Below, in pieces: positions 4,058 through 5,780 of a stretch of 64,000 bases of DNA. The stretch comes from Bifidobacterium breve (GTDB lineage: Bacteria; Actinomycetota; Actinomycetes; Nanopelagicales; Nanopelagicaceae). Where the stretch lies: positions 1-64,000 of the forward strand of contig CAMCXZ010000002.1 of the NCBI GenBank assembly GCA_945883725.1. The letters run 5' to 3'. The notes beneath the pieces are model-generated. The model searched no databases, was not told the DNA's origin, and worked only from the letters and a program-made list of their open reading frames with translations. The stretch's first letter is position 1; every line of letters begins with the position of its first letter. Made by a program: the position numbers and the translations under genes.

Positions 4058-4585
4058 ATGTCCGAGATGGTTGGTGGCGCCGGAATTCCTGATGCTTGGC
4101 AGCGGTTATGGGCACCACACCGAATGGAATATTTAACTGGTGATAATCGACCGCTACCAGGCAATGAAGTTGAGTGTCCGTTCTGTCGAATTCCAACACT
4201 AAGTGATCAAGAGGGTTTAGTAGTTTCCCGCGGTGTTGAGGCATACGTGGTCATGAATCTCTACCCATATAACGCCGGCCATCTACTGGTATGTGCTTAT
4301 CGACATGTAGCAGATCTAACTGATTTGTCAGAGTCTGAACGAAATGAAATCAGCGAACTAACTGCCCATGCCATGACCACGTTGCGAAAAGTAAGCGCAC
4401 CGGCTGGATTTAATTTAGGAATGAATCAGGGCGCAATTTCAGGTGCTGGCGTCGCTGCGCATATTCATCAGCACATTGTTCCGCGATGGTCAGGGGATGC
4501 AAACTTTATGCCGATCATTGGCCAAACCAAAGTTCTACCCCAATTGCTATCTCAGTCTCGGGATTTGATCGCAGCTGCTTGGTAA
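4058..4585 (+). CDS. HIT-family nucleotide hydrolase or phosphorylase
   Basis: The 175-aa histidine-triad protein carries His135-x-His137-x-His139 in the sequence AAHIHQHIVP, the active-site signature of nucleotide-binding HIT proteins, and an N-terminal CPFC pair (Cys40, Cys43) of the kind that can bind zinc. In mycobacteria the homologous gene next to thrS and pgsA is reported as a diadenosine tetraphosphate phosphorylase; this gene likely handles a similar dinucleotide, which is inference from position and family. It starts 2 nt after thrS and is presumably co-transcribed. Its stop is 1 nt from the stop of the convergent gene downstream. Confidence 0.88.
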   Translation: MSEMVGGAGIPDAWQRLWAPHRMEYLTGDNRPLPGNEVECPFCRIPTLSDQEGLVVSRGVEAYVVMNLYPYNAGHLLVCAYRHVADLTDLSESERNEISELTAHAMTTLRKVSAPAGFNLGMNQGAISGAGVAAHIHQHIVPRWSGDANFMPIIGQTKVLPQLLSQSRDLIAAAW

Positions 4586-4586
4586 T

Positions 4587-5159
4587 TTAAAGCTGAGTTA
4601 AATATTCTCGAACTTCTTTGATTCCGAGCCCGGTATTAAAATCTAGGGGAATGGCAGGAAATAAGAGACCGGCCGCGAATGCATCTGGTCCCATCTGATC
4701 AATGGCAAGTAAGTATTCGTCACGAAATTCGCTAACTAAGGTCTTATGTTCGTCAGCACTTTCTATCTGAACTGATGAGCCGTCTTGATAATTCGTAATC
4801 TTCAAATCACTTAATGAAATTAAGGCACATGGAGTTCCGGCATCATCATGCAGAACTAGATACGGAGTAACGCATTGCTCAAAAACGCGATTAGCTAACA
4901 TCACCGCATCGTCGAAATCGCCATCGTTACCAGTTAGACCAGTAACCACAATTAACCTAGGCATCAGGTAATCATCAAGTGATTCCCAGATAGCGATTGA
5001 TTCGGGGGAGATACCCGAATTTGGGTTTATCGCAAAGATGGCCAAGTCAGACTCGACCACGCCCTCCGCACTAATTGTTCCCTTGAATTCAGCGGCTATC
5101 TCATCCAAAAAAGCGCTCTCGTGACCATATATATGGACGCGTAAGTTAGTTGAACTCAT
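4587..5159 (-). CDS. Degenerate EF-G2-like translational GTPase G-domain relic, intact ORF
   Basis: The 190-aa protein aligns by eye, from memory of the family, with the G domain of actinobacterial EF-G2-like proteins. Shared are RVHIYGHE at the N-terminus, DLAIFAINPNSGISP for the strand after switch II, MPRLIVVTGL where the NKxD loop should be, DFDDAVMLANRVF, and FPAIPLDFNTGLGIKEV at the end. It lacks a P-loop (GHESAFLDE where GHSGSGKT is expected), both switch regions (about 60 residues gone), NKxD (TGLT instead) and domains II-V. GTP binding is therefore not expected. The frame is intact and a TAGGCT hexamer sits 6 nt before the ATG, so it is probably expressed. Function unknown. Confidence 0.6.
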   Translation of the reverse strand: MSSTNLRVHIYGHESAFLDEIAAEFKGTISAEGVVESDLAIFAINPNSGISPESIAIWESLDDYLMPRLIVVTGLTGNDGDFDDAVMLANRVFEQCVTPYLVLHDDAGTPCALISLSDLKITNYQDGSSVQIESADEHKTLVSEFRDEYLLAIDQMGPDAFAAGLLFPAIPLDFNTGLGIKEVREYLTQL

Positions 5160-5165
5160 GACTAC

Positions 5166-5171
5166 AGCCTA
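5166..5171 (-). promoter_or_regulatory. -10 hexamer TAGGCT for the EF-G2-like relic
   Basis: Read on the minus strand, TAGGCT ends 6 nt before the ATG at 5159. It overlaps the plus-strand hexamer proposed for pgsA, so two divergent promoters would share a 24-bp intergenic gap. Confidence 0.45.
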
Positions 5172-5175
5172 CGAT
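5170..5175 (+). promoter_or_regulatory. -10 hexamer TACGAT for pgsA
   Basis: TACGAT fits TANNNT and lies 8 nt before the pgsA ATG. It is the only candidate in the 24-bp gap between the divergent genes. Confidence 0.3.
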
Positions 5176-5183
5176 GGGTCACG

Positions 5184-5780
5184 ATGATTAGTGACATTCT
5201 TAAGCCCGCGGTGGTGCGACTAATTTCACCAACTGCGCGAGGTCTGCTGCGTATCGGATTGACTCCTAATTCAGTCACCACGATTGGCGCACTTGGGGTT
5301 ATCACTACCTCGCTAGTTGCTTACCCAAACGGACATTTATTTGGTGGCACAGTTGTCATTTGTTGTTTAGCGTTAAGTGACTTATTCGATGGCACCATGG
5401 CGCGGCTTTCGCAGCAAGGGCCTAGCAGATGGGGTGGGTTCCTAGATTCAACAATCGATCGTGTCACCGACTCAGCTATCGCCATGGGCTTACTTATTTA
5501 TTTAGCGCAGAGCAACGATCCACTTTCCTATGTGCTCTTGGTTTCTATCGTCTCTGGATTTCTTGTTTCATATATTCGCGCAAAGGCAGAAAGTCTGCAG
5601 ATTGAATGCAAGGGCGGTTTTGCCGAACGCACCGAACGTTTAGTTATTTTGTTAACTGCTATCGGTTTTGCTGGCTTAGGCGTTGAGTACATTTTATCTA
5701 TTGGTGTGTGGGCCCTAGCGGTAGCAAGTGTTGTGACCGTGCTGCAGCGTTTGCGGATAGTTTGGAAAGCCACCAGCTAA
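5184..5780 (+). CDS. pgsA: CDP-alcohol phosphatidyltransferase, probable phosphatidylinositol-phosphate synthase
   Basis: Integral membrane enzyme that transfers a phosphatidyl group from CDP-diacylglycerol to an inositol-phosphate acceptor. The 198-aa protein has the full family signature D-x2-DG-x2-AR-x9-G-x3-D-x3-D: Asp66, Asp69-Gly70, Ala73-Arg74, Gly84, Asp88, Asp92, followed by several hydrophobic segments. The inositol-phosphate substrate is inferred from the PatA-like and PimA genes directly downstream, which use phosphatidylinositol. Phosphatidylglycerophosphate synthase is the main alternative. The acyltransferase gene overlaps its stop codon by 1 nt (TAATGA). Confidence 0.85.
   Translation: MISDILKPAVVRLISPTARGLLRIGLTPNSVTTIGALGVITTSLVAYPNGHLFGGTVVICCLALSDLFDGTMARLSQQGPSRWGGFLDSTIDRVTDSAIAMGLLIYLAQSNDPLSYVLLVSIVSGFLVSYIRAKAESLQIECKGGFAERTERLVILLTAIGFAGLGVEYILSIGVWALAVASVVTVLQRLRIVWKATS

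Follow-up and report, generated by a model that had tools for sequence, protein, structure and literature searches.

EF-G2 occurs widely among actinobacteria, where its role is still unsettled. The known systems considered here include EF-G paralogues and proteins that keep a G-domain fold after losing nucleotide binding. Bacteroides EF-G2 (structure 8dmf), a paralogue of EF-G, is reported to translocate with no hydrolysis of GTP (Han et al. 2023, as cited in PMC12775393), and the known pseudoGTPases include degenerate septins (PMC10731463) and the pseudoGTPase domains of p190RhoGAP (PMC5593906). Two further papers describe how EF-G meets the ribosomal stalk: mitochondrial EF-G1 touches the C-terminal domain of uL12m with its G' subdomain (PMC7395135), and the glutamates of M. 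tuberculosis EF-G1 that contact L7/L12 are E221, E225 and E228 (PMC8446442).

We analysed a locus within a 64,000-nucleotide stretch of Nanopelagicaceae DNA (the window), for which an original prediction, made from the letters alone, had proposed a shrunken EF-G2-like G domain. The gene proved to be a reduced EF-G2 that is still under selection, and below we set out its descent, what it has kept and what it might do.

Results

Locus and neighbouring genes

Four features define the locus.

4587-5159, minus strand: coding sequence of a short EF-G2 orthologue, a putative pseudoGTPase (translation, NF009377 match, order-wide search, synteny, hhalign)
5184-5780, plus strand: divergent neighbour, a pgsA-like CDP-alcohol phosphatidyltransferase (named by reading of the sequence)
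4058-4585, plus strand: convergent neighbour, a HIT-family protein (named in the same way)
5166-5171, minus strand: TAGGCT, a -10-like box 6 nt before the ATG of a leaderless-type start

The EF-G2-like frame begins with an ATG at 5159, ends with a stop at 4587-4589 and encodes 190 aa on the minus strand; the coordinates and length given by the original prediction were both right, and it had not named the strand. The start codons of the short gene and pgsA are divergent and only 24 bp apart (5160-5183), so that the upstream part of each promoter must overlap the other gene. A promoter of the form TAGGCT plus 6 nt had been predicted as well and is present, and an exact TAGGCT 6-7 nt upstream of the start is retained in 73 of 79 relatives' loci, against 0.04 expected from its density. 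We presume that the gene is annotated as a short hypothetical protein.

The window's assembly (G000) is 1.34 Mb long, and at its 86% completeness no full-length canonical EF-G (fusA) match is listed for it, though most relatives searched have one; the best EF-G-type match listed there (E 8.6e-21, 637-codon frame) is probably LepA. A short EF-G2 with ≤88% protein identity to the window protein is also present at L115, L120, L121, L123, L134, L158, L162 and L174, in public MAGs whose records bear the name Bifidobacterium breve or Streptomyces griseus; they look misnamed, being Nanopelagicaceae.

Descent from EF-G2

The NCBIfam model for EF-G2, NF009377, matched the window protein alone with E 1.8e-16 over residues 23-153 and matched 28 of 28 diverse members of the short family at E ≤ 0.001. 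The window protein scores 59.7 bits, below the curated family cut-off of 890 bits, because most of the EF-G2 protein is missing. When the short family was compared with full EF-G2 by hhalign, the alignment covered 159 columns with E 1.1e-28 and a probability of 99.8, whereas the control with a reversed EF-G2 alignment gave E 0.42; the aligned span begins at beta4 (the strand preceding that of the G4 loop), takes in the G' subdomain and reaches the final helix of the G domain. Identity between the window protein and single full EF-G2 sequences is 23-39%, and Pfam returned no GTPase match for the window protein, only sub-threshold DUF5370 and SinI noise, the GTPase model being silent because the family is too diverged. 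According to the original prediction, the resemblance ran along the whole 190 aa. This holds for structure, but by sequence only residues ~31-189 align, and the N-terminal 30 residues resemble EF-G2 by fold and by the P-loop remnant GH only.

The interval between HIT and pgsA holds a full-length EF-G2, oriented as in the window, in one genome of the same family (G100) and in 6 of 8 genomes of other families; in the remaining two (L200, L201) no full EF-G2 occupies the thrS-HIT/pgsA spot. Both the profile-profile search and the synteny check that had been suggested with the original prediction therefore bear out the EF-G2 resemblance. The window gene is an orthologue of actinobacterial EF-G2 at the ancestral locus, cut down to the G domain without its GTP motifs.

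Predicted fold

AlphaFold2, run on the window protein with 59 relatives, gave a compact model with a pLDDT of 92.9 and a pTM of 0.89. In a Foldseek search with this model the 19 best matches were EF-G or EF-G2 chains, among them M. smegmatis EF-G2 on the 70S ribosome at rank 2 (9k0z, 2.7e-10), and RF3 first appeared at rank 20. The structure overlay proposed with the original prediction was obtained with VIA-align, which superposed the model on the EF-G G domain with a Z of 20.2 and an rmsd of 2.6, aligning 189 of 190 residues to EF-G residues 6-279. The short form is thus predicted to have the G-domain fold expected of a pseudoGTPase, and in the model it consists of a compactly folded G-domain core plus the proximal portion of G'.

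Losses and retained parts

Six segments of the protein, all on the minus strand, carry the comparison with full EF-G2.

5112-5141, minus strand: residues 7-16, beta1 and P-loop remnant, RVHIYGHESA versus VVLVGHSGSGKT in full EF-G2, no Walker lysine (alignment, model)
4932-4943, minus strand: residues 73-76, TGLT where the G4 motif of EF-G2 is TKLD (hhalign, column counts)
4707-5048, minus strand: residues 38-151, beta4, alpha3, beta5, alpha4, G' strands and first G' helix, EF-G2 columns 104-220, also kept in the other short forms examined
4692-4868, minus strand: residues 98-156, G' subdomain remnant including TPYLVLHDDxGxPxALI, whose EF-G counterpart contacts the bL12 C-terminal domain (alignment, model, hhalign)
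4716-4751, minus strand: residues 137-148, acidic helix
4593-4679, minus strand: residues 161-189, final strand and helix of the G domain (G5 region), joined up once the distal G' helices had been lost (alignment, model)

Compared with its full-length counterpart, the short EF-G2 has lost the lysine and threonine of the P-loop (YGHESA in place of VGHSGSGKT), the whole stretch spanning both switches, the distal helices of G' and domains II-V, the protein ending after the G domain. None of the GTPase motifs G1 (GxxxxGKT), G3 (DxPG) and G4 (NKxD/TKxD) occurs in the window translation, and the position of the G4 lysine is K in only 3 of 28 short-family members. The loss of P-loop, switches, NKxD and domains II-V had all been called correctly. 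The parts that remain are a degenerate beta1/P-loop strand, the beta4-alpha3-beta5 half-sheet, the proximal portion of G' and the final strand with its helix.

Sixteen positions are invariant in the 28 diverse short forms (M1, G49, P67, D81, F82, P99, L101, V102, L103, H104, G108, Y124, F145, G164, P171 and G179), and the first G' helix has E or D at 137, 144 and 148 and F at 145 in 28/28. The counterparts of 144, 145 and 148 are variable in nine full EF-G2s (alignment read by eye), so that the stripe of acidic residues and phenylalanine on this helix characterizes the short form. From genus to genus the N-terminus varies strongly.

Selection on the short gene

Matches were found in 271 of the 296 genomes of the order that were searched, a count that includes a few non-short matches (the full EF-G2 of G100 and other EF-G genes at weak E, e.g., in G120 and G110); every one of the 17 genera was represented, and of the 108 genomes of good quality 106 had a match. 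When 36 genomes from 16 genera were searched again, 28 had the short form, two the longer form of genus g28, one the full gene, two other EF-G genes only and three nothing. A named collection, which includes Candidatus Planktophila lacus and other Planktophila/Nanopelagicaceae genomes, provided 80 loci, with a complete frame in 79 and the remaining one running off its contig. Given these named relatives, we regard the window's genome as that of a Planktophila-like species within the Nanopelagicaceae.

Nei-Gojobori dN/dS to the three nearest relatives was 0.027, 0.027 and 0.041, synonymous sites being near saturation for two of them; for the same relatives the values were 0.039, 0.020 and 0.048 in HIT and 0.052, 0.066 and 0.060 in pgsA. 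Across 63 closer pairs, 56 fell below 0.2 for the short EF-G2 (maximum 0.42), and since its median was 0.091 as against 0.035 for HIT and 0.062 for pgsA, constraint on the gene is clear, though somewhat weaker than on those two neighbours. Throughout the order, strong purifying selection acts on the reading frame, on the promoter at the start site and on the residues. Nucleotide-binding motifs are gone from the protein while selection persists, as would be expected of a pseudoGTPase. The view that this was not a simple pseudogene is well supported, and the dN/dS check proposed for it returned 0.03-0.09, with no neutral ratio.

Loss of the gene from the order's genomes without a hit was considered as a separate matter and was not borne out in 20 genomes with no, weak or partial hits. 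A pgsA at ≥44% identity was found in only three of these (G110, G303 and G108), and in each the contig ends at or near pgsA; another 16 have weak pgsA paralogue hits only and one (G128) has none, so that the whole locus appears to be absent from those 17 assemblies.

Reduction within the family

The full EF-G2 of G100 has a 749-codon frame and scores 1094 bits, above the family cut-off. Genus g28 has a distinct reduced EF-G2 of ~325 aa, with the distal G' helices and 93 further aa (loci L194, ~7.4-8.4 kb, and L237-L240). A tree built from seven neighbouring genes placed G100 and g28 in one clade (support 0.999), split from all short-form genera of that tree with support 1.000; at least two reductions therefore took place in the family. 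The motif LVLHxxDGSPxALI is common to G100, g28 and the short forms and is different in other full EF-G2s, a pattern that favours vertical descent of the gene in G100. On inspection and in a MAFFT alignment, the 93 C-terminal residues of the g28 protein looked like a plausible remnant of domain V, but we do not claim one: hhalign gave E 0.013 at a probability of 3%, one of five column shuffles reached E 0.025, and Pfam EFG_C did not fire.

Reduction across actinobacteria

Searches across the class (246 genomes, 168 matching at 1e-8) and in one additional family (85 genomes, 67 matching at 1e-6) revealed degenerate short forms at the same locus in g117 (198-201 codons), g97 (232-249), g103 (262-423) and g67 (352-363); further short forms occur in part of g87 (377-422 codons, other g87 species having 711 and 762) and in G423 (344). 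The short g87 frames (L266, L268, L269, L270 and L276) keep the P-loop GPxxSGKT and TKLD, and have no DxPG and no C-terminal domains, while their congeners L265 and L275 are full-length; possibly these frames are an intermediate stage of reduction.

For a 61-taxon locus tree, 36 taxa were scored as short and 22 as full, the latter including L253 (G385), whose frame stops at 533, and L277, truncated where its contig ends, and three were set aside as unknown (L267, L279 and L288). Under irreversible loss, the minimum number of reductions was 10 without collapse, nine when nodes below 0.7 or below 0.9 were collapsed, eight below 0.95 and seven below 0.99; without G441, which is at odds with its genus label, the count at 0.9 was eight. 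Among the sampled actinobacteria, degenerate short forms thus seem to have had at least 7-9 separate origins, assuming that no full gene was restored by recombination. The single shrunken gene of the original prediction is therefore real but not a one-off, like reductions having recurred at the HIT/pgsA locus.

Much of the block from beta4 to the first G' helix was kept in 34/34 short forms examined: EF-G2 profile columns 104-220 were each covered in ≥90% of them, a P-loop column in four and sampled columns from 426 on in none. This retention is partly built in, because the forms outside the order were found with the short-family profile. To offset the bias, the HIT/pgsA spot was examined in 22 genomes that had given no hit at the chosen threshold, and HIT was found in 14 and not in eight. 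Among the 14 HIT-bearing loci, 11 had HIT and pgsA adjacent with nothing between, two had degenerate forms with the block and one had the end of a full EF-G2 beside HIT; a C-terminal-only EF-G2 remnant between HIT and pgsA was seen in 0/14 readable loci. The loci at which HIT directly adjoins pgsA are L299 and L301-L310, and EF-G2 is absent there in several actinobacterial families.

Discussion

GTP binding in the usual way is not expected of the short EF-G2, because P-loop, switches and NKxD are gone, and translocase action is not expected, because domains II-V are gone. Since a folded core with conserved surface residues remains under selection, we propose a docking module, and the several, apparently independent, reductions suggest that the remaining piece has a GTP-free job. 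The original prediction had spoken of a repurposed ribosome-associated or protein-binding domain, which fits, with the stalk protein bL12 as the leading candidate partner. That the short EF-G2 is a protein-binding, GTP-independent module is very probable; that its partner is bL12 or another component of the ribosomal stalk is a tentative assignment, at somewhat less than even odds. For the proposal as a whole, a pseudoGTPase docking module that reaches its partner through the G' surface, probably on the bL12 stalk, we put the probability at about 0.5. Such a folded module would bind its partner constitutively, with no GTP switch, through the G' surface that EF-G uses for the C-terminal domain of bL12, and would occupy the stalk or titrate it, with no translocation. 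In this way EF-G2 may have retained a minor role, in recruitment or in regulation, after its GTPase and tRNA-mimicking parts were lost in genome streamlining. The residues give this stalk model mixed support. The acidic G' helix is kept, the stalk-contact glutamates of EF-G only in part: by alignment, the equivalent of E221 is E in 16/28 short forms and is L151 in the window protein, and the part of the helix with E225 and E228 is mostly deleted, all three glutamates being located near the end of the G' helix. Most EF-G-ribosome contacts come from parts that are missing here, which counts against the model.

Two readings are very improbable. A likeness to EF-G2 that was due to chance, or just to the common P-loop fold, would agree with the silence of the Pfam GTPase models and the low identity to full EF-G2, but the hhalign score against its reversed control, the identical locus and orientation and a fold list headed by EF-G chains refute it, and we regard its probability as negligible. 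Nearly as improbable is a decaying pseudogene whose frame is open by chance. The host lineages do have small genomes and have lost most of EF-G2, and some relatives lost the gene cleanly, leaving HIT next to pgsA; this reading is nevertheless contradicted by the presence of matches throughout the order, the low dN/dS, the complete frames in the collection, the retained TAGGCT and the compact, high-confidence predicted fold.

The other two readings accept the origin and the fold and differ over what is bound. Residual nucleotide binding of an unconventional kind could draw on the retained G-domain core and on the less reduced relatives in another family that keep a P-loop (GPKGSGKT) without DxPG, but with the Walker lysine, G3 and NKxD missing from the window protein and a lysine so rare at the G4 position of the family, we consider it improbable. 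A partner unrelated to the ribosome, be it another protein or the module itself in an oligomer, is about as likely as a stalk partner, and in that case descent from EF-G2 would reveal little of the present function. The glutamate of the G' helix that is conserved in EF-G2 is relaxed, and E144, F145 and E148 of the short family are not the EF-G2-conserved residues, so that the interface appears rebuilt; the genus-to-genus divergence of the N-terminus points the same way. Set against this, the fold is closest to EF-G over its entire length, and a partner inherited in common would more easily account for the same block in separate lineages. The docking module itself is common to the stalk reading and to this one.

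A broader claim is that of a recurrent and hitherto undescribed bacterial pseudoGTPase class, in which at least 7-9 actinobacterial lineages whittled EF-G2 in place to a beta4-G' stalk ligand under selection; we think this rather doubtful. The clear purifying selection on the block was measured in the window's order. If true, the ancestral role of EF-G2 would include a GTP-independent stalk-binding function separable from translocation. The reductions amount to a natural domain-deletion experiment, in which the GTP-binding loop and domains III-V usually go on shrinkage and one block stays, and the retained block tells experimenters which part of EF-G2 to examine for binding. The freshwater group to which the window belongs is abundant, and in these actinobacteria with tiny genomes a bacterial translation factor would have turned into a stand-alone pseudoGTPase. 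In the open PMC papers searched we found no paper on a short or degenerate EF-G2 in the Nanopelagicaceae group, nor any on a translation-factor G domain repeatedly reduced in place to a stand-alone module free of GTP motifs.

Among known systems, actinobacterial EF-G2 (EFG II; NF009377; M. smegmatis 9k0z) shares with the short form the orthologous locus, the orientation, the beta4-G' block and the G-domain fold; the short form differs in having 190 aa rather than ~700, in lacking G1-G4, domains II-V and the distal G' helices, and in scoring 59.7 of 890 bits. Bacteroides EF-G2, as reported, is likewise an EF-G relative that works without GTP hydrolysis, but it is a full-length translocating factor, whereas the short form is a fragment of domain I for which translocation is not expected. 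With the septin and p190RhoGAP pseudoGTPases the short EF-G2 has in common a G-domain fold without nucleotide-binding features; those cases are eukaryotic, whereas the short EF-G2 is bacterial, derived from a translation factor and also devoid of the switch strands.
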